The notes under the pieces: model-generated | What the model was told of the DNA's origin: nothing | What the model saw: only the letters and a program-made list of their open reading frames with translations | Database searches by the model: none | In this document: piece by piece, positions 1-63,981 of the stretch | Layout of the letters: each line of letters starts with the position of its first letter | Position numbering within the stretch: position 1 is the first letter of the stretch | Translations under genes and position numbers: made by a program | Source of the DNA: a virus | Reading direction: 5' to 3' (one strand) | Virus record (IMG/VR): IMGVR_UViG_3300032116_000165 | Location: 1-64,000 of that record | Length of the DNA: 64,000 nucleotides

Positions 1-360
1 CCCCCAACATGAAGATTATCCGGTAAGGATTGAATTGGTGTTCCTACTAAACTCAAATCTCCCCCAACATGAAGATTATCCGGTAAGGATTGAATTGGTG
101 TTCCTACTAAACTCAAATTTCCCCCAACATGAAGATTATCCGGTAAGGATTGAATTGGTGTTCCTACTAAACTCAAACTTCCCCCAACACGAAGATTATC
201 CGGTAAGGATTGAATTGGTGTTCCTCTTAAATACAAACTTCCCCCAACATGAAGATTATCCGGTAAGGATTGAATTGGTGTTCCTTGTAAATACAAACTT
301 CCCCCAACATGAAGATTATCCGGTAATGATTGAATTTGTGTATCTCTTAAATCCAAATCC
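1..360. repeat. Six tandem 60-bp direct repeats
   Basis: Six head-to-tail 60-base units each begin with the CCCCCAACA core. Copies one to five differ at only a few positions. Copy six (301-360) is the most diverged and joins unique sequence. The unit is exactly 20 codons, so copies can be gained or lost without breaking the leftward reading frame, in which each unit encodes one leucine-rich repeat. The array continues to the left edge, so the true copy number is unknown. Near-identity at DNA level points to recent expansion or homogenisation. Confidence 0.95.
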
Positions 361-563
361 CCATTAATAATAACCTTATCATATTGTTTATTAAAAACTC
401 TTGTTAATTTCTCAGAATCATTTCTAAATACATTTTCAAGAATCGTTTTAAAATATTCTGGATTCTTATTGAAGATTCTTCTGTTATTTTCTTCCTCTTG
501 CTCAAGAAGAACCTTTCTAACAATCCTATATAAATCTGATTCTGTTAATTTAATCTTTTTCAT
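1..563 (-). CDS. Leucine-rich repeat protein with N-terminal ITES-type leader (partial)
   Basis: On the minus strand an ATG at 563 opens a frame that runs off the left edge; only the N-terminal 187 or so residues are present. The protein starts MKKIKLTESDLYRIVRKVLL followed by an acidic EQEEE stretch. A helical region of about 45 residues comes next, then 20-residue repeats of the type SLPDNLHVGG with LxLxGTPI, which is a leucine-rich-repeat pattern. The leader resembles the starts of the genes at 3442, 45804 (minus) and 63634. Family knowledge: LRR arrays usually form binding surfaces. The partner is unknown and a virion or anti-host role is only inference. The upstream region on its strand has TATTTAT at 574-568 but only four bases before the start. 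The plus-strand frames across this region are shadows. Confidence 0.85.
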   Translation of the reverse strand, partial: MKKIKLTESDLYRIVRKVLLEQEEENNRRIFNKNPEYFKTILENVFRNDSEKLTRVFNKQYDKVIINGDLDLRDTQIQSLPDNLHVGGSLYLQGTPIQSLPDNLHVGGSLYLRGTPIQSLPDNLRVGGSLSLVGTPIQSLPDNLHVGGNLSLVGTPIQSLPDNLHVGGDLSLVGTPIQSLPDNLHVG

Positions 564-606
564 AACCATAAATATTATACCATTTCTAAAAATTGTTATT
601 CTACTA

Positions 607-620
607 TATTTATTGTTAAC
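607..620 (+). promoter_or_regulatory. Candidate phage promoter motif TATTTATnnTTAAm
   Basis: The sequence TATTTATTGTTAAC lies 15 bases before the ATG of the gp25-like gene. It matches a motif also seen before the genes starting at 4467, 26069, 51291 and, on the minus strand, 46205; here the last base is C rather than A. Its role as a promoter is inferred from position and recurrence only. Confidence 0.4.
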
Positions 621-635
621 GAATCACTATTTTAA

Positions 636-1097
636 ATGGCGGAAGGAAAAACATACGGTATAATATTTCCCTTTAGAGAATCCTCAGAGGGGAAATATTT
701 GGAGTTATCCAACTACACAAATGATGAATTGCGTTCAAATTTGATTCATTTATTACTTACAAAAAAAGGAACCAGATATTATCTTCCCGACTTTGGTACC
801 AGACTTTATGAATATATCTTTGAACCATTGGATGGTCCCACTTTTGGTAGTATTGAATCTGATATTAGAGAAGCGGTTGAAAAATTTATACCTCAACTAC
901 AAATAAAAAATATTACCGTAACAGCAGCAAGTAGCGAAGAAGATTCATCCTTTGTTACAACTGCGGGTAATGTGATTAATAGAACTGTTGGAGAACCGGC
1001 AAAACAAACATATGAATATACAGCAAAAGTAAGAATCGATTATGTTGATACAAGTAGTGCTTTTGGTTCCACAGATTTTATTATTCTTAATATTTAA
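636..1097 (+). CDS. Baseplate wedge protein, gp25/GPW family
   Basis: This 153-residue protein belongs to the gp25/GPW baseplate family by the conserved core LLTKKGTRYYLPDFGTRLYE at about residues 47-66, followed by a predicted helix and an FIPQLQI strand. In T4 and other contractile tails gp25 joins the baseplate wedge to the sheath and helps start sheath assembly. It is the first gene of the rightward structural operon, eight bases upstream of the gp6-like gene, the same order as 25-6 in T4. The length fits the family (about 130-150). The ATG at 636 is the only start that keeps the whole domain without adding a hydrophobic, non-homologous extension. Confidence 0.9.
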   Translation: MAEGKTYGIIFPFRESSEGKYLELSNYTNDELRSNLIHLLLTKKGTRYYLPDFGTRLYEYIFEPLDGPTFGSIESDIREAVEKFIPQLQIKNITVTAASSEEDSSFVTTAGNVINRTVGEPAKQTYEYTAKVRIDYVDTSSAFGSTDFIILNI

Positions 1098-1105
1098 TTA
1101 TTAAA

Positions 1106-2944
1106 ATGGCAGAAAGAAGAATAAATTATACCGATAGAGATTTTGTTGCAATAAGACAAGATTTAATTAATTATGTTAATACGTATTATCCCGACTTAAT
1201 TAGCAATTTTAATGATGCTTCGGTATTTTCTGTTTTAATGGATTTAAATGCTGCTGTCACAGATAACTTACATTTTCATATTGATAGAAGCATACAAGAA
1301 ACGGTATTACAGTATGCGCAACAAAAATCATCAGTTTTTAATATCGCAAGAACTTACGGATTAAAAATACCGGGTCAAAGACCTTCTGTTGCGCTCGTTG
1401 ATTTTTCAATTACGGTTCCAGTTTTTGGTGATAAAGAAGATGAAAGATATTTGGGAATATTAAGAAGGGGAAGTCAGGTATCGGGTGCGGGACAAATTTT
1501 TGAAACCGTTCACGATATTGATTTTGCGTCACCTTTTAATAATGAAGGGTTCCCAAACAGATTAAAAATTCCAAATTTTGATGCAAACAATATTCTTATA
1601 AATTATACCATAGTTAAAAGAGATGTTGTTGTTAATGGTATCACAAAGGTGTTCAAAAAAGTTATAACAAATGCTGATGTTAGACCATTTCTTGACTTAT
1701 TTTTACCAGAAAAGAATGTTTTGGGTGTTACATCGGTTATTCAAAAAGATGGTGTATCATATGCTAATGTTCCTTCAGTACAAGAATTTCTTGGTACTTC
1801 AGGAAGATGGTATGAAGTTGATGCTCTTGTTGAAGATAGAATTTTTATCGAAGACCCAACAAAACCATCAGACCAACCCGGAATTAAGGTTGGAAAATAC
1901 ATAACAACAAATCAACGATTTATAACAGAATTTACCCCTCAAGGATTTTTGAAAATGACATTTGGTGGTGGTAATGTAAGTGCTGAAGAGCAACTTAGGG
2001 AGTTTACCAGATTAGGAACTCCGCTTAATATACAAAAATATCAAAATAATATGGCGTTAGGTTCCGCACTAAAACCTAACACAACATTATTTGTTCAATA
2101 TCGAGTTGGTGGCGGTTTATCAACGAATTTAGGTGTTAACGTAATCACACAAGTTAATACAGCAAATTTTGCGGTTAACGGTCCATCACAAAGTGTTAAT
2201 ACCTCAGTTATAAATTCATTAAGATGTTCAAACGTTACCGCAGCTATTGGTGGAGCAAATGCACCAACATTAGAAGAGGTTAGGAATTATGTTTCATTTA
2301 ATTTTTCCGCACAAAATAGAGCGGTAACAATAAGCGATTATGAAGCATTAATTAGAAAAATGCCGGGACAATTTGGCGCACCAGCAAAAGTTGCAATTGT
2401 TGAGGAAGATAATAAAATTAAGGTTAAAATATTATCATTTGATTCTTCGGGTAAATTAACACAAATAGTTTCAAATACATTAAAAAATAATTTAGCTAAT
2501 TATTTATCGAACTATAGAATGATAAATGATTATGTTTCAATTGAAACCGCTGAAGTTATTGATTTAACTGTTGATGTTTCAGTTGTTTTAGATGCAACAC
2601 AAAATCAAGGTGCGGTTGTTTCTGATATTATTAATACAATAACAACTTATTTTAATCCTTTAACAAGACAACTTGGTGAAAATGCTTATATATCCGAAAT
2701 AAGAAGATTGATTCAATCATTAAATGGCGTTATTACAATAACATCATTGGATTTCTTTAATAAGGTAGGCGGACAATATTCATCAGCAGAAACATCTCAA
2801 CCCTATTTGGATAACAACACCAAACAAATTCAACCGATTGATGATACACTTTTTGCAGAACCAAAACAAATTTATCAAATTAGATATCCTCAAAAAGATA
2901 TTACGGTAAGGGTTAAGAATTTTAAAGGTGTTAGCTTTTCATAA
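1106..2944 (+). CDS. Baseplate wedge protein, gp6 / baseplate J-like
   Basis: The 612-residue product begins with INYTDRDFVAIRQDLINYVN and continues with LMDLNAAVTDNLHFHIDRSI and a QYAQQKSSVFNIARTYGL segment, the hallmark start of T4 gp6-type wedge proteins. The C-terminal half carries the baseplate-J-like region, including ALIRKMPGQFGAPAKVAIV around residue 415. Gp6 dimers form the inner ring linking the baseplate wedges in contractile tails. The length is close to T4 gp6 (660). The gene directly follows the gp25-like gene, probably co-transcribed. After its stop an AT-rich stretch of about 140 bases precedes a new promoter-like element. Confidence 0.9.
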   Translation: MAERRINYTDRDFVAIRQDLINYVNTYYPDLISNFNDASVFSVLMDLNAAVTDNLHFHIDRSIQETVLQYAQQKSSVFNIARTYGLKIPGQRPSVALVDFSITVPVFGDKEDERYLGILRRGSQVSGAGQIFETVHDIDFASPFNNEGFPNRLKIPNFDANNILINYTIVKRDVVVNGITKVFKKVITNADVRPFLDLFLPEKNVLGVTSVIQKDGVSYANVPSVQEFLGTSGRWYEVDALVEDRIFIEDPTKPSDQPGIKVGKYITTNQRFITEFTPQGFLKMTFGGGNVSAEEQLREFTRLGTPLNIQKYQNNMALGSALKPNTTLFVQYRVGGGLSTNLGVNVITQVNTANFAVNGPSQSVNTSVINSLRCSNVTAAIGGANAPTLEEVRNYVSFNFSAQNRAVTISDYEALIRKMPGQFGAPAKVAIVEEDNKIKVKILSFDSSGKLTQIVSNTLKNNLANYLSNYRMINDYVSIETAEVIDLTVDVSVVLDATQNQGAVVSDIINTITTYFNPLTRQLGENAYISEIRRLIQSLNGVITITSLDFFNKVGGQYSSAETSQPYLDNNTKQIQPIDDTLFAEPKQIYQIRYPQKDITVRVKNFKGVSFS

Positions 2945-3088: not shown

Positions 3089-3439
3089 ATGAATTTTAAA
3101 ATTTCTAAAACCGAAAAACAAGCTATTTTGGAAATGTACCAAAATAAAAAAAATATTAATGAACTTATTGGTATTAAACCGGGTCCGGAATCCTCTACTG
3201 AGGATTCGTTCCAAGAATATTTAGAGATTGGTTCCACAGTTGCAAACCAGATTAATGGATTTTTTCCATTATGGGATGTTACTAAAAACAATCAGTTTAT
3301 TGGTAGAATACAAATGACATTTGGTATATTTACATTTGTAAATAAAGATTTTGAACCCCGTAATTCTAAAAACGATAAAAGAATTAAAATGGCATCCTTA
3401 GAAAAATTAGTAAAATATATTGATGAAAATTATAACTAA
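3089..3439 (+). CDS. Hypothetical protein, 116 aa
   Basis: I do not recognise this protein. It starts MNFKISKTEKQAILEMYQNK, which loosely resembles the helical leaders of several other products here (K-I-S-K-T-E). The C-terminal two thirds look like a small mixed alpha/beta domain ending in a charged tail (SLEKLVKYIDENYN). It stands two bases upstream of the metallopeptidase-like gene, so the two form an operon behind the promoter at 3030-3060. This pair interrupts the baseplate genes and looks like an insertion with its own transcription. Inside the gene, 3188-3207 is a perfect 8-bp inverted repeat with a four-base loop. Confidence 0.75.
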   Translation: MNFKISKTEKQAILEMYQNKKNINELIGIKPGPESSTEDSFQEYLEIGSTVANQINGFFPLWDVTKNNQFIGRIQMTFGIFTFVNKDFEPRNSKNDKRIKMASLEKLVKYIDENYN

Positions 3440-3441
3440 AA

Positions 3442-4200
3442 ATGAAAATTATAATAACAGAAAGTCAACTTAAATATTTATATAATTTAACTGAAAGTGG
3501 TGGCATTACGTCAAAATCTAGAGTATGGACACCTATTGTTATGAAATTTTTAGATACTGAGGAAGATAAGATTATAATTTTGGGTAAAGATTACCCAGAA
3601 CAATATAAAGATTTTCCAATTGATAAAATGGTTGTTACTTTAAATGGAATACCACATTATGATGAACAAAAATCAGGTTATGATAAAAAAACAGGTTTAT
3701 ATACCGTTTATATAACAATTAATAGTAGCGTTTCTTTTATCCAACATGAATTTAAACACGCATATCAAGACTTAATGCGTTATTTAAATAAATCAAAACC
3801 ATTTAAAGAAAGTAATTTTATTAAAGATTTATATACACCAGATTTTGAAAAATTTGTAATAAATGTTTTTGGTGGTTCAGATAATACACTAGAATTAATT
3901 TTATATTATTATTACATTACTTCAAAAGTTGAACAAGACGCTTATTTAGAAAATATGTATGATGACAGTGAAACACTAAATTCATTTATTAAAGATTTAA
4001 ATGAAATAAATAACTTTGATTTTAATAAAAATTTATCAGAAAAAAAATGGAACGAAATAAAGAGTTCTAATATTCCATTTATTAAAAAATTTAAATCAAA
4101 GGAAGATTTTGCATCTTATAGCGAAAAACGAATCAAAGGTGAAATAAACAACTTTAAAAAGAAAATTTATAAAATGAAGGTGGTTCATAATTTAAAATGA
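3442..4200 (+). CDS. HExxH metallopeptidase-like protein with ITES leader
   Basis: The 252-residue protein starts MKIIITESQLKYLYNLTESG, the clearest example of the shared leader. The motif FIQHEFKHAYQDL (H102, E103, H106) is a zincin HExxH signature. About 60 residues further on, ITSKVEQDAYLENM offers a glutamate as a possible third zinc ligand, and the similar TSIEFRAW element follows the HExxH of the protein at 61096. A zinc-dependent peptidase or hydrolase is therefore likely; the substrate is unknown. A virion-packaged enzyme, or one acting in assembly, would fit the leader. It has no signal peptide in the classical sense. The stop is followed by an AT-rich region with no convincing rightward gene. 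Confidence 0.7.
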   Translation: MKIIITESQLKYLYNLTESGGITSKSRVWTPIVMKFLDTEEDKIIILGKDYPEQYKDFPIDKMVVTLNGIPHYDEQKSGYDKKTGLYTVYITINSSVSFIQHEFKHAYQDLMRYLNKSKPFKESNFIKDLYTPDFEKFVINVFGGSDNTLELILYYYYITSKVEQDAYLENMYDDSETLNSFIKDLNEINNFDFNKNLSEKKWNEIKSSNIPFIKKFKSKEDFASYSEKRIKGEINNFKKKIYKMKVVHNLK

Positions 4201-7400: not shown

Positions 7401-9581
7401 TTCGGTTATACCACGTATACAGACAATAATATTGTAAACGGAAACTATAAACTTAATGTTCCAATACAACCAAATTATCGATTAGCAAATCATAATAATC
7501 TATCAAATAATGCAAATGATGGGGATTATTTTAATAGATTTATATATTATCCATCATACAATACAGATTTTAATACCTCCTTTAGTTCTTATACAACAAA
7601 TTTACACACATATTATTCTTCATTAGATTTATCATCGGTAACATCAAATTTCACAGTTAATAATAATTATCCTTGGACGCAATTAACTGTTGGACATATT
7701 ACTGTTGCTGCTGGTAGCCAATTAGAGCTAAGAACCGGTGGTCCAATCAGTTCAGCTTTTATTGGTTGTGGTGGTTATTTTGAAACAACATTCGGCGGTA
7801 GTGATATTGGTGAATATATTGAGGGTGGTTCTTATACTTACCAAAGACCTGAAGGTTATTTTGTCTATGATCAAAATTGTGTATCAACACCCTCATCCCC
7901 CAATGCGAATAATTGCGATAATAACGAGGAAACCTTTATTTATTTTGCACCAAAATATGATTCCGGTAACACACTAACTGTATCAGCATCAACTAGATTG
8001 GTATTTAGGTCCGATAGATTGCCAACATCAACTAATCTAGATCAGGATTTTGTTTATTTTGGCTTATTCGGTAATCAAAATAATTCTGCTCCGGGACAGC
8101 AAAATAATAACTTCTTTATTTATCTTTATGGTGAGGATTCAACAGGTGAAGGAATTGGTCAACCTTGGTTAGATAGTGCTGTGGATGTTGAAGTTACAAG
8201 TGATGTTGATGGTAATACTATATCTGACACTCAAGATGATTATGATAATAATTCGGGTGGTCCAAATATTAGTGGTATAATTAATTCATTAAGTTGTGAA
8301 TCATTGGTTGATTTAAGTTGTTATCAGAATGGAACACCAGCAACTCTTTCGGAAACAGCATCAACAGATAATTGTAATAGGACCGGACCAAATATTGCAG
8401 TAGACAATGGTTGTTATATTTTAGTAAAAAGAGCAATACTTGATTTAAATCCTCTCCAAGAAAACAATGATTTTGCACAATTAGGTGAGTGGGTTGGTAG
8501 ATTAAGACTAAATTTAGGTGCGTGTTTAGGCGTTATCTCTCATACATTCGTTAATTCATGGGTAAATGGTGTATTATATCATTTTGCAATTAAAAATAAT
8601 AGATTTTTTGATAACCAAAATAATCAACCATATTCATTATATTGCTCAGATGTGGTTATTTTAGACCCAAACACAAATAACTATTATTATCGCTCATCAC
8701 CTTATAATACGACTTTTAATCAATTTATTGGTAAATCTACAATTAATTCAGTACAAGATAAAAATTTATTATATCCCACAACAATTATGGATTTAGGACC
8801 ATTAAATTCATACACAAATGAACTTATTTATGGTCCCGAATATGAAGGTTATGTCGCAAATAAATTAAAACCAACATCATATCAAGATGTTACAGAAATA
8901 TTACAATTATTTTTCTTAAGTAGATTAACTAACGCTAATTCATTAGCATTAGCTTTGGGTGTTGGACAAAATTCTGGCGTTGCTGCATTATTTAAAAATC
9001 AAAGAGGTGATAGTAAAAAAAGAATTGATGGTGATTATGCACAGTCAATTCAAATTAATAGCCAATTTGGTGTATTTGAGTTTTCTCCAGACCAATACAA
9101 TAATTCGGATATTTACTTTGGCGGAAATGCCGATGGTGGGTTATTAGGTATTTTCTTTGATGGTGATAACCAAAATAGAGATTTAATCTCACCGAGAAGA
9201 CTCATTTTTAGTGAATCCCCATTAGTAGGTCAACAAATACCCATTTTTACTCAAAAAGTTCCATATTACAAATGGTACATAGAACCAAACACATCATTGA
9301 TTTTTGGTAATCAAAATAATGATTGGTCTATGTCTATAGGTTCACATCCATATCAATTATTGGATAGAATATCTTCAGACTTTTTTAGAGGTAACGCTAA
9401 TAGTGCGGAAGAATCATATAGAGGTTTTATAACAAATGTTAATCCATCTGGAACTAATATTTCGTTACTTGGTAGTAGCGGACCAAACCCAACAATAATT
9501 GGCGGTCCTTGGTATTTTTATTTTGGTTTAAAGAATGCGGCAACAGCAATCGATAAATTCTACTTAAAATATGTTGAATAA
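4467..9581 (+). CDS. Giant tail/baseplate structural protein, 1704 aa, with membrane-like segment
   Basis: This is the largest gene in the window. Residues about 50-165 contain a repeated transthyretin/carboxypeptidase-regulatory-like pattern (GVITGRVIANGGYGIPNAKI and TNESGDYMIFGVPLGNQTVF), a beta-sandwich fold common in surface proteins. Residues about 508-560 are strongly hydrophobic (FYTISSIFLLIIYFLIFGLL and following), then a basic segment and a Cys cluster (CPEPIEC, CSLCEDC). The rest is Asn/Ser/Gly-rich, typical of fibres and baseplate proteins, without an obvious catalytic motif. Its position after gp6 is where T4 has gene 7, but I see no sequence link to gp7. It is followed by TAATG coupling to the next gene. 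A tail component, perhaps touching the host envelope, is the best inference. Confidence 0.75.
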   Translation: MGKSYRIRTELGINKQIQVNLEQDYDFLEILSLKFRPEEIYPRSCADFGVITGRVIANGGYGIPNAKISVFVPISDEDALNPVISTLYPYRKVSDVNEDGYRYNLLPYIKQHAGHTPTGTFPSINDVLVDNTVIEIYDKYYKFTVKTNESGDYMIFGVPLGNQTVFMDLDLSDMGPFSLSPQDLIRMGRATQTQIDGTLFKASENLDSLPQIVSEVIEISVEPFWGQEDLCQTKIHRLDFDLRKLGIEIEPTSVFIGSMISDADKYKIKRRCKPASEGGDLCNLVAGPGEILAIRQTIFLDDNNRPVLEEFRLENGGRVIDEDGTWVVDLPMNLDFVTTNEFGETILSANPSIGIPTSAKYRFKVKWQQSSDLSEGTKRGYYLVPNIREYGWTSSDDDPVPTAQDTNQPPSTIPFDVLASYAFSLDWNDYGNTGTTIGNQMIFDAINCVDKFYVFKYKKLYTVSQLIDQYHNGTGKQRFIGIKEITDTRCESENNKFPTTDGVRNTNLFYTISSIFLLIIYFLIFGLLIPIHLIAFISRLFCRIYNSIIIPACRLLRSLGLRRKPCPEPIECKDILTLRLPMLTYPDCSLCEDCKSDVTDSNSAVNDEVPGIEDVGNTGLLLAPIDVTSVNLNTPCLTQGDVVDQNVALVLQAGRYFGQPTNSITGNAQDSFNSPWRHTSMYINRIDTVIGLGSYLGEDRYFACELPFAEKINLFNTKAKYFDGDFGGSFVNGGIGGANQIKVYVEPNLNNSATTYHLDNTYILIVDPETLENYTQGRLVSFQDFLLSNDFNVTGNSGNSIIGSGNTGLTQINVTYANPQDTPLVLNPTPLSTTYNVNFTEGSPEYKYPTDIEYFQVITGMTYTEFMSKVNPSGVNDLASRYLNYIVNIKRSRKLFTPLTQLGFPPYNFTTLLPVDSSCPPIQPYGNLSICDNTITDVCSLSAITAFNNYQNFGVIILNRGVDVNTERVNISYDLSRIFGYTTYTDNNIVNGNYKLNVPIQPNYRLANHNNLSNNANDGDYFNRFIYYPSYNTDFNTSFSSYTTNLHTYYSSLDLSSVTSNFTVNNNYPWTQLTVGHITVAAGSQLELRTGGPISSAFIGCGGYFETTFGGSDIGEYIEGGSYTYQRPEGYFVYDQNCVSTPSSPNANNCDNNEETFIYFAPKYDSGNTLTVSASTRLVFRSDRLPTSTNLDQDFVYFGLFGNQNNSAPGQQNNNFFIYLYGEDSTGEGIGQPWLDSAVDVEVTSDVDGNTISDTQDDYDNNSGGPNISGIINSLSCESLVDLSCYQNGTPATLSETASTDNCNRTGPNIAVDNGCYILVKRAILDLNPLQENNDFAQLGEWVGRLRLNLGACLGVISHTFVNSWVNGVLYHFAIKNNRFFDNQNNQPYSLYCSDVVILDPNTNNYYYRSSPYNTTFNQFIGKSTINSVQDKNLLYPTTIMDLGPLNSYTNELIYGPEYEGYVANKLKPTSYQDVTEILQLFFLSRLTNANSLALALGVGQNSGVAALFKNQRGDSKKRIDGDYAQSIQINSQFGVFEFSPDQYNNSDIYFGGNADGGLLGIFFDGDNQNRDLISPRRLIFSESPLVGQQIPIFTQKVPYYKWYIEPNTSLIFGNQNNDWSMSIGSHPYQLLDRISSDFFRGNANSAEESYRGFITNVNPSGTNISLLGSSGPNPTIIGGPWYFYFGLKNAATAIDKFYLKYVE

Positions 9582-43479: not shown

Positions 43480-45807
43480 ATGAATATTTCAATAGAAAAA
43501 TTAGATAACCCCTATGTACAGATTGTTTGGGAGGATTCACCAGAAAATTTCACGCAGGAAAGAATTAAGCGTGTCAAAACATATTTTTCAAAGAAGTATA
43601 ATACCTCTAATGTTAACATTGTTTTAAAAACAATCCTTGAGAAAGAAGAAGAGGATACAACTGTTGACACCTCTTTTAACATTCTAGATAAAAATTATCA
43701 ACTTGATGTTGTTAAAAATTATTTAACTCAAAAAGGTCTTGAGAATTCTTATGAGGATGTTGTTGGAATAAACAACATTGTTGAAAATAATTTGGTATTA
43801 AGTAACCCAGATATTTCACCATTTAAAAAATGGTATATCAAAAAAATTGAATTTTCAAATTTTTTATCGTATGGTGAGGACCAAGTTTTGGATTATGAAA
43901 CATTAAGAGGTATTAGTGTTATTGAGTCGAATCCAAAAAATTTCGGGGGTAAAACAATTTTAGGGCTGGAATTACTTTTATATCTATTTTTTAACTCAAC
44001 ATCTAGAACTTCAAAAGCTGAAGATATCTTTAATAAATTCTCAGATAAGAATAAGGTCACTGTAAAGGGAACTATTAATATTGATGGTGAAGATTATGTG
44101 ATTATTAGAACCGCAGAAAGAAAATTAAATAAAACAGGTGAGTGGAATGTAAAAACCGAACTTGATTTTTTTAAAGTTCTTCCAGATGGTGAGCTTCAAA
44201 ATTTCACAGGAGAACAAAGAAGAGAGACTGAGAAATTTATAAAAACATCAATTGGTGAACAAGAAGATTTCTTAATGACTATTCTAACAACATCTTCCAA
44301 TCTAGAAGAACTCTTAGAAGCAAAACCCACCGCTAGAGGTCAAGTTTTAAGTAGATTCCTTGGGTTAGATGTTCTTAAGAAGAAAGAAGAAATAGCTAAA
44401 GAGCTTTACTCGAATTATTCAAAAGGAATGCTTTCAAATGTGTTTAATGTTGAGCAATTAAAAAATGACAATATTGAACATGAAAAAATGATTGGTATTT
44501 TAAACGATTCTAATAAAGAACTTGATGTTAAATTAAATGAGGTTATCGAGAAGATTAAAATCGGTGAAAAATACCGCGAAGATTTATTAAAAACAAAACA
44601 TTCTGATATTGACAAAGATTTGATTATCTTTGAACCCGAAAAAGCTAAAAACGACATTATAAAGATAACCAAAGAAAAGACTGATTATCAAAAAGAATTA
44701 TCCGTCCTTAAAGTAGTTGAACCATCGGAATTTTATCATGAGGATAAACATGATGAAGTTAAAGAAAAAATCACAACTAGAAAAAGTGAAGTTGCTGTTA
44801 TAGGTAGTCAATTACGAGAAATTGATTCATTAATGTCTAAGTACTCAAATGGGATAAAATGTGAGCACTGCGGAATTGAATTAATAAATGCAACATATAC
44901 GCAGGAAAAAATTTCTAGAAAAAATGATTTAACCGACAAATTAAATTTAATTAATAATGAACTAAATTCATTATCTGTTAGTGAACAAAGTTTTACTAAA
45001 TTAAAGAAAGAATTTGATGAATATGAAAAAGCAAAATTAATTAAGGAGAAATTTGAAGTTAGTATTGATGCTTGCGATATTAAAATAAACTCTATTGAGG
45101 AAAAAATTAATCGATATAATGATGCACAAAGTAAAATTGCAGATAATCAAAAGATTGATGGTCTGCTAATAAAAGCAAAAGTTAGGATTGATGAATTAAA
45201 TTCGGATAAAGATAGGGTAAACAAAGAAATTAATAACAACAATTTCCAGATTAAATCTTATCATCAGAAAATAGATGAGAACAATAAGAGAATTATTAAA
45301 ATTGCTGAAGAATTTGAAAAAGAGAAAATATATAAAATATATCTTGATATTTACGGTAAAAATGGAATTTCAAAAATTATAATGAAATCTATGATTCCAT
45401 TAATTAATTCTGAACTCCAAAGACTTCTTGAGGATTCCGCATTATTTACTCTTCAAATTAAAATAAATGATAAAAATGAAGTTGAGTTCTGGATGACGGA
45501 TAACTCAAGCGGAATTGAAAAACTTATGGTCACAGGTTCTGGTTATGAAAGAACAATTGCAAGTCTAGCCCTTAGGTCCGTTCTGTCAAAAGTTTGTTCA
45601 TTACCGAAACCGAATATTATAGTATTCGATGAGATTTTTGGTAAAGTATCTGATGATAATTTAGAAATGGTTGGAGAGTTCTTCAAGAAAATAAAGGAGT
45701 ATTTTGACAAAATCTTAATTATTACACATAATCCATTAGTATCAAATTGGGCTGATAGTATAATTAAAATTAAGAAAGAAAATAACATTAGTAAGATTGT
45801 TAATTAA
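43480..45807 (+). CDS. Recombination endonuclease subunit gp46 (SbcC/Rad50-like)
   Basis: The 775-residue SMC-type ATPase begins after a 120-residue N-terminal extension: IKKIEFSNFLSYGEDQVLDY, then SNPKNFGGKTILGLELLLYL at the Walker A place (about 150-170). Long coiled-coil arms flank a zinc hook CEHC near 459-462. The C-terminal lobe has VTGSGYERTIASLALRSVLS (signature motif region) and IIVFDEIFGKVSDDN (Walker B, about 711). It pairs with the gp47 nuclease at 40732 for end resection. The Walker A lacks the usual first glycine (Pro in its place) and the signature is SGYE rather than SGGE. The N-terminal extension is unusual for gp46. Confidence 0.85.
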   Translation: MNISIEKLDNPYVQIVWEDSPENFTQERIKRVKTYFSKKYNTSNVNIVLKTILEKEEEDTTVDTSFNILDKNYQLDVVKNYLTQKGLENSYEDVVGINNIVENNLVLSNPDISPFKKWYIKKIEFSNFLSYGEDQVLDYETLRGISVIESNPKNFGGKTILGLELLLYLFFNSTSRTSKAEDIFNKFSDKNKVTVKGTINIDGEDYVIIRTAERKLNKTGEWNVKTELDFFKVLPDGELQNFTGEQRRETEKFIKTSIGEQEDFLMTILTTSSNLEELLEAKPTARGQVLSRFLGLDVLKKKEEIAKELYSNYSKGMLSNVFNVEQLKNDNIEHEKMIGILNDSNKELDVKLNEVIEKIKIGEKYREDLLKTKHSDIDKDLIIFEPEKAKNDIIKITKEKTDYQKELSVLKVVEPSEFYHEDKHDEVKEKITTRKSEVAVIGSQLREIDSLMSKYSNGIKCEHCGIELINATYTQEKISRKNDLTDKLNLINNELNSLSVSEQSFTKLKKEFDEYEKAKLIKEKFEVSIDACDIKINSIEEKINRYNDAQSKIADNQKIDGLLIKAKVRIDELNSDKDRVNKEINNNNFQIKSYHQKIDENNKRIIKIAEEFEKEKIYKIYLDIYGKNGISKIIMKSMIPLINSELQRLLEDSALFTLQIKINDKNEVEFWMTDNSSGIEKLMVTGSGYERTIASLALRSVLSKVCSLPKPNIIVFDEIFGKVSDDNLEMVGEFFKKIKEYFDKILIITHNPLVSNWADSIIKIKKENNISKIVN

Positions 45808-46205
45808 AATTTAGCATCAAATGGATTTGTTAAATCACCAGTTTTAAATGCAACACCGCCCACATAATTATTTTCTTTAATTTGGCTGGCAAAATATTCC
45901 ATCATTTTCATGGCAACATTACGATCAAATTCTTTATCGTCAGTTTCAGGAACAAATAAATCAACATATATCGAGCCTCTAGCTCTTCTATGTGGCTTAC
46001 CATCTGAATCAATATCATCAATGACAGCTTCATCAAATTCATCATTAGAATCTATTAATTGCTTTAATTTATTAATTAATTCTTGTCTTGGATTATAGTC
46101 ATCAATCTCTTCATCATTAAACTCATCATTATCAGATTGCTCTAATAAAAATTTTTTTAATTCAGTAATTAATTCAGATTCGGTTAATTTAATTTTTTTA
46201 GACAT
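45804..46205 (-). CDS. ITES-leader acidic protein, 133 aa
   Basis: This leftward gene overlaps the gp46 stop by four bases. It starts MSKKIKLTESELITELKKFL followed by LEQSDNDEF, almost the same leader as the LRR gene at 563. After a very acidic stretch, residues about 65-133 form a compact alpha/beta domain (RARGSIYVDLFVPETDD, FASQIKENNYVGGVAF). I do not recognise it. The promoter-like motif TATTTATGTTTAAA is at 46229-46216, identical to that before the fibre gene at 26069. The shared leader suggests co-targeting with the other leader proteins. Confidence 0.75.
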   Translation of the reverse strand: MSKKIKLTESELITELKKFLLEQSDNDEFNDEEIDDYNPRQELINKLKQLIDSNDEFDEAVIDDIDSDGKPHRRARGSIYVDLFVPETDDKEFDRNVAMKMMEYFASQIKENNYVGGVAFKTGDLTNPFDAKF

Positions 46206-46215: not shown

Positions 46216-46229
46216 TTTAAACATAAATA
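46216..46229 (-). promoter_or_regulatory. Candidate phage promoter motif TATTTATnnTTAAA (minus strand)
   Basis: Read leftward, the sequence is TATTTATGTTTAAA, ten bases before the ATG at 46205. It is identical over all 14 positions to the plus-strand site at 26046-26059. It lies in a 39-base intergenic gap shared with the divergent gene at 46245. Confidence 0.45.
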
Positions 46230-50488: not shown

Positions 50489-51259
50489 ATGGCAAACATT
50501 AAAGATACAATAGATAGCGCATTTTCACAAGCAGCAGCACAAAGTGATGTTTCTAGAGGTGAAATGGCAATAAAAGCATCAGATTTAAAAAATCAGATGA
50601 AAGTTAATGCTAACGAAGAAAAAAATAAAAAAACTAAAAAACGAATAACAAAAGAAGCGACAACATCGGGGTCATCTGGTGCATATATTCAGTCACTTTC
50701 TAATGGTGAAACCAAAGAAGAGACCCTTAAAGGTGGTATGGCAGATAATAAAACGTTAAATCAATTAGCAAAAAAACATAATGTTAAAAAAACGACATTA
50801 GAAAAACAATTAAAGAAAGGTATGAATGTTGAAAAAGAACATGTTAGTAAAACTGGTTCTAGAAAAGAAATTGCTATGGATCATCTTACCGAAGATCCAA
50901 AATATTACGATAAATTAGAAAAACTGGAAAAAAAAGGAAAGAAAACCGAAACAAAAGAAGCTACTGGCGCATCATCTGCTGGTCAGTATTCGGGTCCAGC
51001 ATTCTTAGCTAAAAGCATGAATAAAAAAGATTGGAGAGGAGCCTCTAAAACACAGTACCCCGGTGGTAAATTTGTTGAAGTTAAGAAAAAATGTAAGACC
51101 TTTCCATACTGCAATCAAGGCAACATTAAGTCGTTGAAGTTATTTGAAAATGAACAACTTAATAATATTATTAAAAAGATTTCTGAAAAACATAATATAT
51201 CTGAAAATATAATTAAAAATATTCTCATTTATGAAATGCAAAAAAAAGGAATAATTTAA
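50489..51259 (+). CDS. Assembly-type protein with DUF5661-like segment and EAT repeats, 256 aa
   Basis: A Lys-rich protein. Residues about 90-155 (KGMNVEKEHVSKTGSRKEIA, then MDHLTEDPKYYDKLEKLE) match the DUF5661-like E-H-x-x-x-x-x-x-x-I-A-x-D-H-L pattern. Two direct repeats flank it: TKEATTSGSSGAYIQ (near 54) and TKEATGASSAGQYSG (near 154). Then a C-x-x-x-x-x-C patch (KKKCKTFPYCNQGN) and a helical C-terminus with NNIIKKISEKHNISENII. Composition and neighbours suggest a scaffold- or core-type protein that may be processed. It precedes the promoter-like motif at 51270. Confidence 0.6.
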   Translation: MANIKDTIDSAFSQAAAQSDVSRGEMAIKASDLKNQMKVNANEEKNKKTKKRITKEATTSGSSGAYIQSLSNGETKEETLKGGMADNKTLNQLAKKHNVKKTTLEKQLKKGMNVEKEHVSKTGSRKEIAMDHLTEDPKYYDKLEKLEKKGKKTETKEATGASSAGQYSGPAFLAKSMNKKDWRGASKTQYPGGKFVEVKKKCKTFPYCNQGNIKSLKLFENEQLNNIIKKISEKHNISENIIKNILIYEMQKKGII

Positions 51260-51269: not shown

Positions 51270-51283
51270 TATTTATAATTAAA
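51270..51283 (+). promoter_or_regulatory. Candidate phage promoter motif TATTTATnnTTAAA
   Basis: TATTTATAATTAAA fits the motif exactly and ends seven bases before the ATG at 51291. It is preceded by GA, as at 47614 and on the minus strand at 46229. Confidence 0.4.
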
Positions 51284-51290: not shown

Positions 51291-52682
51291 ATGGAGAACG
51301 AAAAAAAATATATCACATCCTTAATAAATCAAGTTCTTGAAGAATCCATCCAAGAAAAAGCTGAATCAATTGTTAAAAAATTAAAAACAGATATGGGTAA
51401 AGAGGTTGAAGAAGGTAATGCGTTTACTGGAGCACTAGCCACCGCAAGAAAAGAAAATAAAAAAGAATTTCAAGTTGACGGTAAAAAATTTAAAGTTGAA
51501 GAATATTCCGAATTAGATGAGAAGTGGAAAGGTGATGTTGATGTTGAACAGACGGGTGAATATGTCGATATGTCAATTTCTGAACTTGATGCTGCAATTA
51601 AGAAGTTAAAAAATCAAAATGAAAAATATAAAGAAGAAGGTAAAAAAGTTCCTGATTCAAACAAAACTAAAATGAGTCAGCTTTATTTTGCTAAAAGAGC
51701 TAAACAAGGTTGGAAAGGTAAAGGAAAAGCTAAAGTTAGTGAATCCATTGAAATAATTAATGAAATTTCTAAAGAAAAGGAATATAATAATTTAATCAAG
51801 TATTTTGAAAAAATTTTAAAGTTCGATATCAGCGAATTAAAAAGCGGTCATAGAATTTGCCCACCTAAAGAATCAAATGTTGATTGTATCACAACACATA
51901 GAAGTGGTGGTGGTTTGAACGATATGTATCGTTTAGTTGGTAAAGTTTATGATGTTACTAGACTTGAGGCAGAAAAAGCTTTTAAAGATAATAGAAAACC
52001 TAAAAAGAGTGATAAAGTTACAATGACAGAAGAAGAAATGGTCACATTTATCGAAAATATTGTAAACGAACAAAAATCTGCTAAGGGTTTAGATGTTTAT
52101 AAAAAATCACATAAAGAGTCTGGTAAAGAAAATGATGACTACATTAAATCGGTCACAAAAAAGTTTAAAGAATATTTAAAAGACGGTTCAAAAGGTGATT
52201 TTGATATGAACCCTAAAACATTTCCAAAAGGAAACGGTCAATTGACTAAAATGACTAAAAAGGCATATACCCCCTCAAAAGCGGTTGATGAATATATTGA
52301 AAACTTTGCACAGACCGCAGGTATGGAGAATATAGACTATGATGAAATTAAACCTAATGAAGAGTGGGTTGAGATGAACATCAAAGGTTCGTCAAAAACA
52401 GGAAATTCGTCAGATTATGCAAATGCTGAAAAAACAGACTTAGGTGAAAAAATAAATGAAAAGAGAAAAAAGAATTATTTAGCAGCATTAAAGCGACAGT
52501 CATATAACAAAGCACCTCAACCGGTAACTGATTTTGCTGGTGAAACTGATGCAAAAAAAGGAATGGAAGTTAATAAAATCTTTAAAACATTAGAATCAAC
52601 TGAGGATTCTAAAAAAGATAAAATTAACGAAGAAATGAATAAAATCTTTAAAATGATTAATTATAATCAAAAAACACAATAA
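51291..52682 (+). CDS. Lys/Glu-rich assembly-type protein with ITS leader, 463 aa
   Basis: The protein starts MENEKKYITSLINQVLEESI, a looser form of the leader family. It is about a third Lys plus Glu with few hydrophobic blocks. A helical part (EYVDMSISELDAAIKKLKNQ, AKRAKQGWKGKGKAKVSE) lies at about 84-150. A compact module near 183-240 has GHRICPPKESNVDC and LNDMYRLVGKVYDVTRLEAE; its H-R-I-C...C motif also occurs in the LysM-like protein at 63634. The C-terminal 200 residues are disordered-looking. A prohead scaffold or internal core protein is plausible but unproved. It has its own promoter-like motif. Confidence 0.6.
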   Translation: MENEKKYITSLINQVLEESIQEKAESIVKKLKTDMGKEVEEGNAFTGALATARKENKKEFQVDGKKFKVEEYSELDEKWKGDVDVEQTGEYVDMSISELDAAIKKLKNQNEKYKEEGKKVPDSNKTKMSQLYFAKRAKQGWKGKGKAKVSESIEIINEISKEKEYNNLIKYFEKILKFDISELKSGHRICPPKESNVDCITTHRSGGGLNDMYRLVGKVYDVTRLEAEKAFKDNRKPKKSDKVTMTEEEMVTFIENIVNEQKSAKGLDVYKKSHKESGKENDDYIKSVTKKFKEYLKDGSKGDFDMNPKTFPKGNGQLTKMTKKAYTPSKAVDEYIENFAQTAGMENIDYDEIKPNEEWVEMNIKGSSKTGNSSDYANAEKTDLGEKINEKRKKNYLAALKRQSYNKAPQPVTDFAGETDAKKGMEVNKIFKTLESTEDSKKDKINEEMNKIFKMINYNQKTQ

Positions 52683-56118: not shown

Positions 56119-56132
56119 TATTTATTAATAAA
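56119..56132 (+). promoter_or_regulatory. Weak copy of TATTTATnnTTAAA motif
   Basis: TATTTATTAATAAA has one mismatch to the consensus and lies 23 bases before the ATG at 56156. The surrounding sequence is almost all A/T, so chance occurrence is quite likely. Confidence 0.25.
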
Positions 56133-56155: not shown

Positions 56156-58144
56156 ATGAAAACATTAGAAGTTCTTAAAAAAATTCTAGTACAAGAATCC
56201 ACCATTTTGTTAAATGAATTGTCTAGTGGAATTAAAAAAACGATGTTAGACAAATTTAAACAAGAAACTGATGATTCCGATGAAAATATCGTTAATATTA
56301 TTAATTCATTTGAGAATTACCAACAATCACTAGAACCATCACAGAGAGATATTACTAAATATAACTATGAGGATTTAAAATCATTAGTTAAAGAAAAAGA
56401 AAGTGAAAAAGAATCAAAAAAACAAAAAGAAAATATTATTTCTTACTTTAAGAAAGTAATGGGCGGAACGGTTGACCCAATGCTAAAGAAAACTGTAAAA
56501 TATTTTAATGAAATTAAAGACGAATTATCTGAAAAAGATTCGAACTTTAAAAATTTTAAAGATTTTGAATCTTTTAAAGAAATGGTTCAAAGTAACTATT
56601 CAAAAATAATCTATGATAAGATTTCAAAAAAAATAAAAAATATAGACGAAAACATATTACTTGCAAGTATAAGTTTTTTTACTGAAAATATGTTTAGTAT
56701 ACCTCTTGAAGCAAAAAGTTTATTAGACTTTAAAAACGAGCAAGAGTTTGAATATTTTTTTGATGATTTATATCGAACTTTTGGGCAAACTAAAAAAAGT
56801 GATTTTTCAGGTGAAGAAAAATATAGTAGTATAAAAAAAATATATAATAAAGATAATTTACTTATCTTTGAACCAGAAAGCAAAGAGCAGTGTGTTAGAT
56901 TAGGTTCCGATAAAGCATCTTGGTGTATATCTAGACCACCTCAAGACTCAAATTATTATTATTCATACAGATTTGGTTCGATGGGTAAAGAAAGAACAAT
57001 GTACTTTGTTTTTGATTTAAATGAGGAAGAGCCAATAAATAAATATTTTGTTATTTTAGTTGACGATGATACTAATTATTATCTTGCTGACATAACAAAT
57101 AGTGGTAATTTCTCAGGAAGTCGCATTACCAGTTGGGATACGATTGTAGAAAAAATACCAAGAATTAAAAATTTAAGAAATTTATTTATTTGGAGACCAT
57201 TTAGTGAAGAGGAATTAATTATGGTTAATAGACTTCAAAATATATCTAGTTCAGCGGTTGGAGAAAATCCTATCGAATATTTTAATAGAATAGCGGCGGA
57301 AGTTAATAAAAAACCGGAGGAAGTAACGGGAATGTGGCTTGAAATAGGTTCACCAACTTTAACTACGGAACAATATTTAAATTTAACATCGGATTTAATG
57401 AAAAAATATTTATCCTATGCTAATGATAGAAATATTACTAAAGAAATGATTTCTGGAAGTCCATCTACTGTTAGAAGTTATTATATCAATAGACGATTTG
57501 AGCATATTAAACATGCATCAATAAAAGATTTAACACCTAGCGATTTTGTTCTACTTAAACTGAACCTTCCAAAAATGAAAGAACTTAGACTTCAGAAAAT
57601 AAAAGAACTAGCCAACTCGATTAAAACCTCATCAAATAAATTAAGTTCAAATGAAATTGAATTCTTATTATTACCAGAAATGGCAACAATAAAAAACTCA
57701 ATGAGGAAGGAAATAATATCAAGTATTTCAGAATTTAATACTAATAGTGTTGATATAAAATTACCGGACGCTGAAATTACAAAAGTAATTAGATTATACC
57801 CTGATTACAATATATTTGAAACAATCCCAGAAAGTGTTGAAATTATTAATATTGAAAACAATGATAAAAATATAAATATAGCTATAGATATTCCAGATAA
57901 TATTGGTAACTTTACTAACTTAAGAATTTTAACTCTAAGGAGAGTTTTGAAAACTTTACCAGAAACAATTGTAAATTGTGAAAATTTAGAATTTTTTAGC
58001 ATATCAGATAATCCAAACCTAGTAAAATTACCCGAATCGCTATTAGAAATGAAATCTGTTCAATGGGTGGATTTAGCGGATTTACCTAATTTGGATAAAA
58101 GAAGTGAGGAAATTAAAAACATATTAGTTATTAAATATGCATAA
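56156..58144 (+). CDS. TKWCT-family protein with C-terminal leucine-rich repeats, 662 aa
   Basis: The start MKTLEVLKKILVQESTILLN looks like a variant of the leader (helix then E-S and L-x-E). Residues about 238-320 hold the TKWCT-like block: LIFEPESKEQCVRLGSDKAS, W-C-I-S, then MYFVFDLNEEEPINKYFVIL. Thr before W-C is replaced by Ser. After about 200 helical residues, leucine-rich repeats begin near 545 (IDIPDNIGNFTNLRILTLRR, TLPETIVNCENLEFFSISDN, KLPESLLEMKSVQWVDLADL). It is the only family copy with LRRs and links the family to the LRR genes at both ends of the window. The function is unknown. It overlaps the next gene by eight bases. Confidence 0.75.
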   Translation: MKTLEVLKKILVQESTILLNELSSGIKKTMLDKFKQETDDSDENIVNIINSFENYQQSLEPSQRDITKYNYEDLKSLVKEKESEKESKKQKENIISYFKKVMGGTVDPMLKKTVKYFNEIKDELSEKDSNFKNFKDFESFKEMVQSNYSKIIYDKISKKIKNIDENILLASISFFTENMFSIPLEAKSLLDFKNEQEFEYFFDDLYRTFGQTKKSDFSGEEKYSSIKKIYNKDNLLIFEPESKEQCVRLGSDKASWCISRPPQDSNYYYSYRFGSMGKERTMYFVFDLNEEEPINKYFVILVDDDTNYYLADITNSGNFSGSRITSWDTIVEKIPRIKNLRNLFIWRPFSEEELIMVNRLQNISSSAVGENPIEYFNRIAAEVNKKPEEVTGMWLEIGSPTLTTEQYLNLTSDLMKKYLSYANDRNITKEMISGSPSTVRSYYINRRFEHIKHASIKDLTPSDFVLLKLNLPKMKELRLQKIKELANSIKTSSNKLSSNEIEFLLLPEMATIKNSMRKEIISSISEFNTNSVDIKLPDAEITKVIRLYPDYNIFETIPESVEIINIENNDKNINIAIDIPDNIGNFTNLRILTLRRVLKTLPETIVNCENLEFFSISDNPNLVKLPESLLEMKSVQWVDLADLPNLDKRSEEIKNILVIKYA

Positions 58145-61945: not shown

Positions 61946-61960
61946 TCTGTAAAATTTTAG

Positions 61961-62194
61961 ATGGAAAATAAAGAAATGGTTAACCACCCAAATCATTATG
62001 GTGGAAAAGAAAATGTCTATGAAGTGATAAAAGTTTGTGAAGCATGGTCTTTGGAAAAAGACGCTTATCTTTTTAACGTAGTTAAATATGTCGCTAGATC
62101 AGGTAAAAAAGACCCCAATAAAGAGTTAGAGGATTTAAAAAAAGCAAAATTTTATTTGGAAAGGAAAATTTATCTTTTGGAAAATAAAAATTAA
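61961..62194 (+). CDS. DUF3310 family protein, 77 aa
   Basis: The product reads VNHPNHYGGKENVYEVIKVC, then NVVKYVARSGKKDPNKELED and LKKAKFYLERKI, matching the DUF3310 pattern of a V-N-H-P-x-H-Y start and K-Y-x-x-R-x-x-K core. DUF3310 is widespread in phages and sometimes fused to nucleotide-metabolism enzymes; its role is unclear. It is a single complete domain here, preceded by a 40-base T-rich gap. Confidence 0.85.
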   Translation: MENKEMVNHPNHYGGKENVYEVIKVCEAWSLEKDAYLFNVVKYVARSGKKDPNKELEDLKKAKFYLERKIYLLENKN

Positions 62195-62236
62195 TAAATT
62201 ATTCATAACGTCAGTATATTTATACAAAAAGATGTT

Positions 62237-63265
62237 ATGAAAGAATTAGAAATAAAATGGGGTTTACTATCTCTAGCTGAAAGAGAGTTTGTAGTTGAGA
62301 CATTATTCTTATTACATCCAGAAAAGAAACAAGTAATTACCGAAGCTGCTTGGTGGAACACGCTAGGGGATGTTGTAGGTATTTTTGACCCAACTGGGGT
62401 TGTTGATATTGTAAATGGGTTAGATTATATTCGACAAGGTGACCATTTATTTGGTATGTTGTCGATGATTTCAGCAATTCCCTATCTTGGAGATGTGTTT
62501 GCAAAACCCGTAATTGGTGTACTTAAACTAGGTGGTGAAGGAGCGAAGATTTTAAGAGGTGCTAAAACTAGTTCTGATTTAGCAAATGCTGGTAGAAAAG
62601 TACCTGAATTTGGTAAGTTGTTAAAAAATAGCGATGAAATCTTACCGAGACTTATTCAAATTCTAAAGAAAGGCGAAAAAATACCCGTCATTGGTGGTCT
62701 TATGAAGGTTATTAATGAATGGATTACTCTTTTAGCGAAGGGTGCTAAAGAATATAAATTAGGTACAACCACAACTAAAACCGCAGCAAAAGGTGCGGTC
62801 GCTTCTGGTGAAAAAATAAGTCTTTTAAATACTATAAAAGATATTTTAAAACCCGGAGCAAAAACAAAAACGTTTAGAACGTACAAAGATTTAGACCCAT
62901 CATTATGGTCAAAATATGTTGTTGGTGGGGTTGGTAGAATTTGGGGTAATAGATCAGTTAGATCTTTGATGAGAAGAACTAAATGGTATTTAGGTTTACT
63001 TGATTATCTAGGTGTGGCTAATTTTATTGGTCCAGATGAGCTAGAAGCAAAACTTGGAAAAAACACAGTCCTTAACGGAATTGAAAAATATGCATCGACA
63101 CCACAATCTACACAAGCTTGGAATAGTGATTTTTCTGGCTCTGAGATGACTAAAGATTTAGATGTTGATAAGGAAGTAAAACCAGAAAAAGAACAAGAGA
63201 AATCTAGTTTAATACCTCAGACTGATGATATTCTTGGTATGATAATAAAACAATTATTTTTATAA
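62237..63265 (+). CDS. Membrane-active, pretoxin-like protein, 342 aa
   Basis: After VITEAAWW (about 34-41, which includes an I-T-E core), residues about 42-105 read LGDVVGIFDPTGVVDIVNGL, YIRQGDHLFGMLSMISAIPY and LGDVFAKPVIGVLKLG. This resembles the pretoxin/PT-type helical segment that precedes toxin domains in polymorphic toxins: hydrophobic helices with D-P-x-G-x-V-D and I-P-Y-x-G-D turns. No toxin or HINT domain follows. The remainder is basic (KTFRTYKDLDPSLWSKYV) with an acidic tail. A pore-forming or ejection protein is possible. TATTTAT at 62217-62223 precedes it. Confidence 0.55.
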   Translation: MKELEIKWGLLSLAEREFVVETLFLLHPEKKQVITEAAWWNTLGDVVGIFDPTGVVDIVNGLDYIRQGDHLFGMLSMISAIPYLGDVFAKPVIGVLKLGGEGAKILRGAKTSSDLANAGRKVPEFGKLLKNSDEILPRLIQILKKGEKIPVIGGLMKVINEWITLLAKGAKEYKLGTTTTKTAAKGAVASGEKISLLNTIKDILKPGAKTKTFRTYKDLDPSLWSKYVVGGVGRIWGNRSVRSLMRRTKWYLGLLDYLGVANFIGPDELEAKLGKNTVLNGIEKYASTPQSTQAWNSDFSGSEMTKDLDVDKEVKPEKEQEKSSLIPQTDDILGMIIKQLFL

Positions 63266-63268
63266 AAA

Positions 63269-63634
63269 ATGAAAGACACGATAGTTTTGACATTCGTTGA
63301 ATTACAACAACAATTAAGAATTTTACATTGGCAAACAAAATCTTATGCAAAACATAACGCATATGGTAAAACATATGATGAATTAAGTGGTTTGATTGAT
63401 GACTTTGTTGAAATCTCTATGGGTAAATATGGAAGATTTGAATTAACAGATGGTACAATTGAGTTGTTTGACATAAAAAATATGTCACTTCAAGACTTTA
63501 TAGATTCAGCAGTTGAGTTTTTAATTTCGTTAAGTGGTGAATTTTCAGGCGAAACAGACACTGACTTATTAAATATAAGAGATGAAATGCTTGGTCAATT
63601 TAATAAACTAAAATATCTATTAACATTAGAATAA
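63269..63634 (+). CDS. DUF5856-like helical protein, Dps-like motif, 121 aa
   Basis: A four-helix protein with VELQQQLRILHWQTKSYAKH, AYGKTYDELSGLIDDFVEIS and M-G-K-Y-G-R-F, the pattern of phage DUF5856 proteins. The L-x-H-W-x-x-K-x-x-x-x-H spacing and the D/E pair a helix turn later resemble the ferroxidase helices of Dps/ferritin proteins. Whether it binds iron is inferred only. It is joined to the LysM-like gene by TAATG. Confidence 0.7.
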   Translation: MKDTIVLTFVELQQQLRILHWQTKSYAKHNAYGKTYDELSGLIDDFVEISMGKYGRFELTDGTIELFDIKNMSLQDFIDSAVEFLISLSGEFSGETDTDLLNIRDEMLGQFNKLKYLLTLE

Positions 63635-63981
63635 TGGCTAAAATTATAATAACAGAAAAACAATTAATTGATTTAAGAAAATCAATTGTTAATGAAGATG
63701 CAACCGGATTAAAACCGGGGGAACATCGTATTTGCAAGGGCGGTTATTCAGAATCTTGCTTAATGGAAACCGGTAATTTAAAATATAATGTAAAAGGCGA
63801 TAAACCATATTTTGCATTAATATATAAAGTCGCATCTGGTGACACTATGAGCGGTATTTTATCAAAGTTAAATAAAAAGGGTAATTTTATTATTAAGAAT
63901 CCGATGGAACTCAATACACTTTTAAAGAATGAAAATGATTTAAAACCTAATGATGTTCTTCTTTTTAATTTTGAGGTTTAA
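63634..63981 (+). CDS. ITE-leader protein with LysM-like domain, 115 aa
   Basis: The protein starts MAKIIITEKQLIDLRKSIVN then EDATG, a full leader match. GEHRICKGGYSESC shares an H-R-I-C motif with the assembly-type protein at 51291. Residues about 68-115 (YKVASGDTMSGILSKLNKKG, MELNTLLKNENDLKPNDVLL) follow the LysM pattern Y-x-V-x-x-G-D-T-x-x-x-I and L-x-P-x-D-x-L. LysM domains bind peptidoglycan, so this could be a virion-carried cell-wall-binding protein. It ends 19 bases before the right edge. Confidence 0.7.
   Translation: MAKIIITEKQLIDLRKSIVNEDATGLKPGEHRICKGGYSESCLMETGNLKYNVKGDKPYFALIYKVASGDTMSGILSKLNKKGNFIIKNPMELNTLLKNENDLKPNDVLLFNFEV

Follow-up and report, generated by a model that had tools for sequence, protein, structure and literature searches.

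The 64,000-nucleotide stretch analysed here (the window; positions 1 to 64,000 of IMG/VR virus record IMGVR_UViG_3300032116_000165) encodes proteins of unrelated type which begin with a common N-terminal leader, and this leader is very probably a removable capsid-targeting propeptide, serving for packaging and then cleaved off. The record has 65,704 bases and is 100% identical to bases 161,740-227,443 of G001, a 256,029-base IMG/VR contig of a T4-like myovirus (G+C 29.5%) that contains the window.

A common leader on unrelated proteins of the window

The N-terminal leader was confirmed, and its four main instances are as the initial annotation had described them. On the minus strand, the class A leader of the leucine-rich repeat (LRR)-type protein lies at 501..563 (21 residues by sequence, MKKIKLTESDLYRIVRKVLLE, ending VLLE↓Q, where ↓ marks the predicted cut; profile 40.1 bits) and that of the acidic protein 45804-46205 at 46140..46205 (22 residues, MSKKIKLTESELITELKKFLLE, ending FLLE↓Q; 25.8 bits); on the plus strand, IIITE-type leaders open the metallopeptidase-like protein of gene 3442-4200, whose body contains HEFKH (3442..3495; 18 residues, MKIIITESQLKYLYNLTE, ending NLTE↓S; 19.9 bits), and the LysM-like protein 63634-63981 (63634..63696; 21 residues, MAKIIITEKQLIDLRKSIVNE, ending IVNE↓D; 28.9 bits). 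The annotated start at 563 is preferred to the ATG further upstream (569), a codon overlapping a TATTTAT element (568-574); the LRR-type body runs to the window edge (3-563, minus strand), the full gene being G001:161166-162308. A DNA pattern for K-I-[KR]-L-T-E-S-[DEQH]-L matched the window twice (563, 46205) and never in 100 dinucleotide shuffles. Profiles trained without G001 and the window recovered 21 of 338 G001 open reading frames (ORFs) at 10 bits or more versus 0 of 806 ORFs of control contigs (those hit by one arbitrary 16-mer, a base-rate control that may favour T4-like phages), and of these 21, five lie at least partly in the window (563, 3089, 3442, 46205, 63634). Two G001 matches at 5-6 bits (102493, 157927) were judged spurious.

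The looser forms of the leader listed in the initial annotation were only partly the same thing. Gene 3089-3439 starts with a member of another leader class (class D, 3089..3163, plus strand; 25 residues, ending NINE↓L, cut placed by eye; 15.5 bits), whereas 51291, 56156 and 62237 gave no leader-profile match; each of these three has TATTTAT upstream and, by eye, a hydrophobic-x-E near its start.

Leader anatomy and the predicted cleavage site

The consensus of 62 leaders is MKKIIRLTESDLxRIVKRVIxE. Since the scans selected on the front half of the leader only, its back half was not selected, and the family-weighted last three positions read I70 V17 L10, then a free position (K35 N26 and others), then E85, with information falling to background after the terminal E. 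The L-x-E-like end proposed from the window is borne out as [ILVM]-x-E in 195 of 207 canonical leaders, 176 at register +9 and 19 at +13, about one helical turn further on, as in DLHRIVKESVNKILKE; the residue frequencies at the first of the three positions (P3) indicate that V is accepted more widely than the T4 L/I-x-E rule states. D replaces E in 1/207, at +13. In the bodies, residue frequencies are 7.4% for E and 8.2% for D, and 1.4% of positions carry [ILVM]xE. Other leader classes share the end, both short (MNLQEHIRKVLRE↓E, MKSLIRKILKE↓E) and long (for example MKNILSSLNESEKRRILEMHYRASNRQYLTE↓G), and the leaders, of about 11-36 residues, are N-terminal and short, as T4-type capsid-targeting propeptides are.

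Uncut docking of the cargo to a virion or assembly structure (scaffold, tail, baseplate), with [ILV]-x-E as the last turn of the docking helix, is an unlikely alternative. The late-type promoter and structural company described below would suit any virion protein, and LysM, peptidoglycan-binding and lysozyme-like bodies would suit a tail, but an E end which gives way to D only once, a free middle position (P2) and the same end on otherwise different leaders make a better protease site.

An upstream element shared with structural genes

The sequence TATTTAT occurs at most 45 bases upstream of 14/21, 19/27 and 21/26 leader genes in G001, G003 and G008, compared with 51/285, 74/289 and 78/324 other ORFs; pooled, this is 54/74 versus 203/898 (P 3e-18), a contrast that may be inflated by the mechanical calling of the other ORFs, some of which are spurious or have a wrong start. 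An earlier count with uncorrected starts and TATTTA within 40 bases gave P values of 0.03, 1e-6 and 1e-6 in the same order. A cleaner contrast was obtained between structural and DNA-metabolism genes of the three genomes (15/24 versus 0/18, P 1e-5), the element preceding the protease, scaffold, sheath-like and gp25 genes in 3/3 genomes, terminase in 2/3, portal in 1/3, and gp23 and gp6 in 0/3 (the names terminase, portal, scaffold and sheath rest on position and reading). In the window it precedes 563 (568..574, minus strand), 46205 (46223..46229, minus strand), 51291 (51270..51276, plus strand), 56156 (56119..56125, plus strand) and 62237 (62217..62223, plus strand), and is absent upstream of 3089, 3442, 50489 and 63634. 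Such an element, common to leader and structural genes, would be an indirect sign of late expression together with the head genes. TATTTAT resembles the reverse complement of the T4 late promoter, TATAAATA; a literature search, outside which most subscription papers lie, returned no match for it as a phage late promoter.

Copying of 5' ends together with their promoter during gene duplication or capture, leaving a functionless peptide, would account for the frequency of TATTTAT upstream and for nine G001 genes with the same body kind and nearly the same leader, which are clearly duplicates. It is very improbable: third codon positions vary at the invariant leader residues over 117 body families, which indicates that selection acts on the peptide, and the upstream DNA beyond the short element differs between genes.

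Leader exchange on homologous bodies

Sixteen body families carry differing leader classes on homologous bodies (classes were assigned by regular expression, loosely for some members, and two upstream-extended class A ORFs typed as class C were excluded). In the best pair of each family, once aligned, the predicted cuts coincide in 6 families and differ by no more than one residue in 8; in at least one of the 8 non-aligned families (G003:251189) a second site, LLNE↓SGIR, lies by eye against LISE↓SGIR. The 18-residue leader of 3442 (NLTE↓SGGITS) is replaced in its L500 relative by a 22-residue class A leader (VISE↓TAGITS), with 65% identity over the whole alignment. In gene 62237-63265, where the initial annotation had noted a recurrent I-T-E near residue 35, this stretch proved not to be a second leader core; it is the junction VITE↓AAWW, at the end of a 36-residue pro-region (62237..62344, plus strand) whose E36 is invariant in 11/11 relatives. 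The residue two before this E is I, L or V in all of them, and the stretch before it varies in length and sequence, 8/11 starting with an IIITE-type leader and the window protein and two others starting differently. In the YMFFSNLEQ family the E is likewise invariant (9/9) though leaders are long or short. A removable tag would predict such differing peptides, united by a hydrophobic-x-E end where the body begins. Related-locus searches found 5 loci for 3442 and 3 for 62237, mostly of the same virus, and a profile of the 3442 pair gave one match among solved structures (E 0.41), taken as noise.

That the leader simply belongs to the fold of every domain is very improbable. Structure predictions were too weak to speak for or against it (mean predicted local distance difference test values 48.9 and 48.2), but leaders stand on about 165 body families, with homologous bodies bearing leaders of different length and class.

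Two further observations concern the region around the junction. The proteins L249:2209-2703 and L117:5456-5998 have bodies 98% identical; before VIKEQGVRT one of them has a class A leader and the other an unrelated N-terminus, a recent exchange near the leader end. A peptide KWE[ST]G[LA]TRG.AN recurs in otherwise differing proteins (L011:11815-12756, L017:3221-3448, L030:11015-11326, G003:217895-218128, G008:86615-86935), lying in L011 between the leader and the junction LQE↓SRWYN.

Distribution of the leader among phages

A DNA pattern of the leader was found in 88 stretches of viral contigs and a second pattern in at least 120. The loci collected hold 387 leader-starting ORFs, 262 of them distinct in the first 40 residues, with 21 to 27 leader-type ORFs per genome in G001, G003 and G008. 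Distinct leader proteins of at least 70 residues number 257 and form 165 body families at E 1e-3, a count made by regular expression that includes a few false positives. Rejected as such were HNH endonucleases (L050:6076-6762; cf. G001:61551), in which LTEEQIKEILRLYN was taken as a helix-turn-helix, and glutaredoxin-like proteins (G001:220494, G003:30236); those of L050 and G001:220494 are still within the count.

The profile of 62 leaders matched 22/22 lineage records, with 2 to 16 copies each, versus 0/14 control contigs. It gave no match at E 1 in T4, Flavobacterium phage immuto, Microcystis phage Mel-JY01, LR756511 or RM378, and two weak matches (best E 0.013) in LR756508; the consensus had no tblastn match at E 10 among named phages, and no cultured leader-bearing phage was found. 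On these profile matches the leader is a lineage-specific signal, not one general to phages with an S77 prohead protease. No description of it was found in literature titles and abstract openings, most subscription papers lying outside the search.

Head genes

The initial annotation had suggested looking for a gp21-type prohead protease elsewhere in the genome, and one is present (S77 family, G001:56986-57708), which the window could not reveal because its coordinates lie outside. The next genes are of scaffold type and gp23 capsid type, and scaffold and capsid genes adjoin the protease in G001, G003 and G008 alike; the capsid proteins of G001 and G008 share 75% identity, and Pfam identifies that of G008 as gp23. 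S77 was detected in 23/40 records (32 chosen by leader, 8 by gp6) and in 18/24 of a further set, one record being common to both, and in 19/20 distinct records of at least 150 kb (the 19 include G008 and G012, nearly the same virus; the exception is G043). Thirty records were tested for gp23: 23, including the large G043, lacked both S77 and gp23 and 7 had both, so the negatives lack the head region. For S77, another 14 records gave 1/14, and are uninformative because 13/14 are under 50 kb. The capsid N-terminus reads LI[NY]E↓A in 10/10 proteins compared, a site compatible with the T4 L/I-x-E rule.

Leader genes adjoin the protease in L279, L317, L356 and L362 and lie between protease and scaffold in L024. 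Within 3 kb of the protease lie at least 3/7 leader matches in G049 and at least 3/10 in G044 (binomial P about 3e-4 each), and at least 2/9 in both G045 and G050 (P about 0.007 each); these four records are probably related, so that the four tests cannot be taken as independent. The leader genes of G001 are scattered. A general argument from leader-capsid neighbourhood was abandoned, as part of a capsid gene occurs in 12 of about 200 leader stretches, by rough estimate near chance, and it was retained only for the group with leader genes adjoining the protease.

Predicted cargo

Few of 142 representative bodies match Pfam or NCBIfam, and of 10 chosen bodies Pfam matched 2. The matches include LysM, peptidoglycan-binding, phage lysozyme, nucleoside 2-deoxyribosyltransferase, UPF0227/YqiA-like esterase, DUF6576 and LRR-type domains, with one DHH match below the cut-off. 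The window contributes an LRR-type body, the HEFKH protein, the acidic protein and a LysM-like body whose match (63634) falls below the Pfam cut-off. The nine duplicate G001 genes, whose leaders and starts are almost alike (635, 26441, 42873, 91139, 116421, 146925, 152088, 161166, 226947), are predicted to form an expanded and varied cargo family; those read further carry LRR-type repeats (LPDNLHVGGNL...).

A proposed packaging route

Late in infection, the leader would dock its cargo onto the prohead core, made of a gp22-like scaffold. The gp21-type (S77) protease would then cut behind the E that closes the [ILV]-x-E end, as at the capsid site LI[NY]E↓A, and the freed bodies would remain in the head beside the DNA, from where they may be delivered to the host. 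The tagged proteins are probably carried into the host, and their injection and effector function are suggested by analogy with the T4 internal proteins (PMC9391042).

Several results weigh against packaging and cleavage. Eleven of the 207 canonical leaders have a site at neither +9 nor +13, and predicted cuts are off or unaligned in 8/16 exchange families. The residue after the cut in class A leaders is mostly Q, N, E, S or D, and the capsid site has A. Some bodies resemble cell-wall enzymes, and one body has a weak likeness to replication factor C (E 1.2e-4). The protease can occur without the leader, as it does in four of the 14 leader-negative control contigs, and S77 is common in control contigs in general (7/19), so that its presence serves as a consistency check only.

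The initial annotation had proposed one signal packaging diverse effectors into the head. The fixed [ILV]-x-E end, the leader exchange, the gp21/gp22/gp23 genes and the late-type element favour the packaging part of this statement, but several leader classes exist where one was proposed, and the effector role is one that we infer, because most bodies match no described family. We lean, with some reserve, towards a modular protein-delivery system in this large T4-like lineage (records up to 412 kb), in which leader classes ending in [ILV]-x-E would be an address code for one scaffold and one protease, and a gene would enter the cargo once it had gained a leader and a late promoter. Each genome would then package roughly 20-30 proteins, drawn from well over a hundred families, mostly unknown and possibly concerned with host takeover or anti-defence.

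Packaged and injected phage proteins are normally learned from proteomics of cultured virions. If the leader is such a signal, the packaged proteome of uncultured giant phages becomes readable from sequence, a large set of candidate first-response proteins is exposed, cargo evolution by tag exchange is illustrated, and phage heads could be loaded with proteins by means of new tags.

Other features of the window

The window also encodes gp25-type and gp6-type baseplate proteins, followed by RuvC, primase, exonuclease, SbcD, SbcC and sigma genes. Relatives of gp6 occur in 8 of 50,697 named phage records, including immuto at 26.9% identity.

Further candidate leaders were read by eye. Gene 51291-52682 has a possible short leader at 51291..51344 (plus strand; 18 residues, ending VLEE↓S), and gene 56156-58144 one at 56156..56218 (plus strand) that may end at LVQE↓S (residue 14) or at LLNE↓L (residue 21). 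Around residue 245 of the 51291-52682 product, an internal leader-like stretch (VTMTEEEMVTFIENIVNEQ) could be a second processing site. Gene 50489-51259 has a possible pro-region at 50489..50656 (plus strand; 56 residues, ending ITKE↓AT), a weak case with T at P3 that was read beside capsid-gene-neighbour proteins showing E↓[AS][ST]. This protein and L018:9122-9853, L050:5108-5842, L086:2702-3643, L014:4100-4900 and G003:178439-179209 seem to have differing N-termini followed by a similar start, E↓[AS][ST]..G..G.[YF], and such proteins mostly adjoin capsid genes; the window protein appears to bear the E↓[AS][ST] motif twice (KEATTSGSSGAY, KEATGASSAGQY).

Comparison with known systems

Among cultured phages, immuto has an annotated prohead protease, a capsid precursor reading IVSE↓A and several short starts that by eye end in hydrophobic-x-E (MRLLELLRE↓A, FDLKKFLVENKLTTNSKILKE↓N); it differs in having no match to the LTESDL leader. 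No paper title on the immuto virion was found in the literature search. Two adjacent immuto proteins, L491:6712-7713 and 7713-8012, share a start F[DN]L[KR].FL[VT]ENKLT.N..[IL]LKE, possibly a packaging leader that immuto has of its own. In the 484-kb uncultured phage LR756508 (L490:13715-17424), five consecutive genes downstream of the capsid gene have short leaders (for example MRLKEILLE, MKLKGILKE), and three of them share a stretch like YLYRGT, FLKRAS or YLMRGT that recalls ADP-ribosyltransferases, with no Pfam match; over 10 proteins of LR756508, immuto and L347, Pfam matched 1/10.

The propeptides of ejection proteins in giant phages of the SPN3US type, as presented in PMC5694885, resemble the leader in being N-terminal; they stand on head proteins and are removed by the prohead protease after E. 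They are mostly longer than 100 residues and confined to few proteins, whereas the leader has about 22 residues and stands on 21-27 ORFs per genome.

The closest likeness is to the T4 capsid-targeting sequence (CTS) of IPI, IPII, IPIII and Alt, processed by gp21, which is also N-terminal, short, present on differing proteins and ended by hydrophobic-x-E (PMC9026906, PMC5694885), and is likewise encoded in a genome with a gp21/gp22/gp23 head system. According to PMC9026906, cleavage follows the rule L/I-x-E and removes 7-65 residues from mature virion proteins, and an IPIII with Asp at the cut residue is still targeted although its processing is inhibited; PMC9391042 reports that IPI inhibits a restriction system and that IPIII is needed for infecting a particular E. 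coli strain. N-termini in the T4 record read MKTYQEFIAE↓A (ipII, ipIII), MAKINELLRE↓S (gp24) and MNEPQLLIE↓T (gp21), with cuts placed by eye from the rule. The leader departs from the CTS in its unrelated sequence, its length (about 22 residues versus 10), its far more numerous body families and its several classes per genome. Since the leader profile found no match at E 1 in the T4 record, which holds the CTS MKTYQEFIAE, the leader appears to work like the CTS, and homology is not supported. Judged on these features, it is very probably capsid targeting of the T4 kind, without detectable sequence relation, in several classes and with a far larger cargo.

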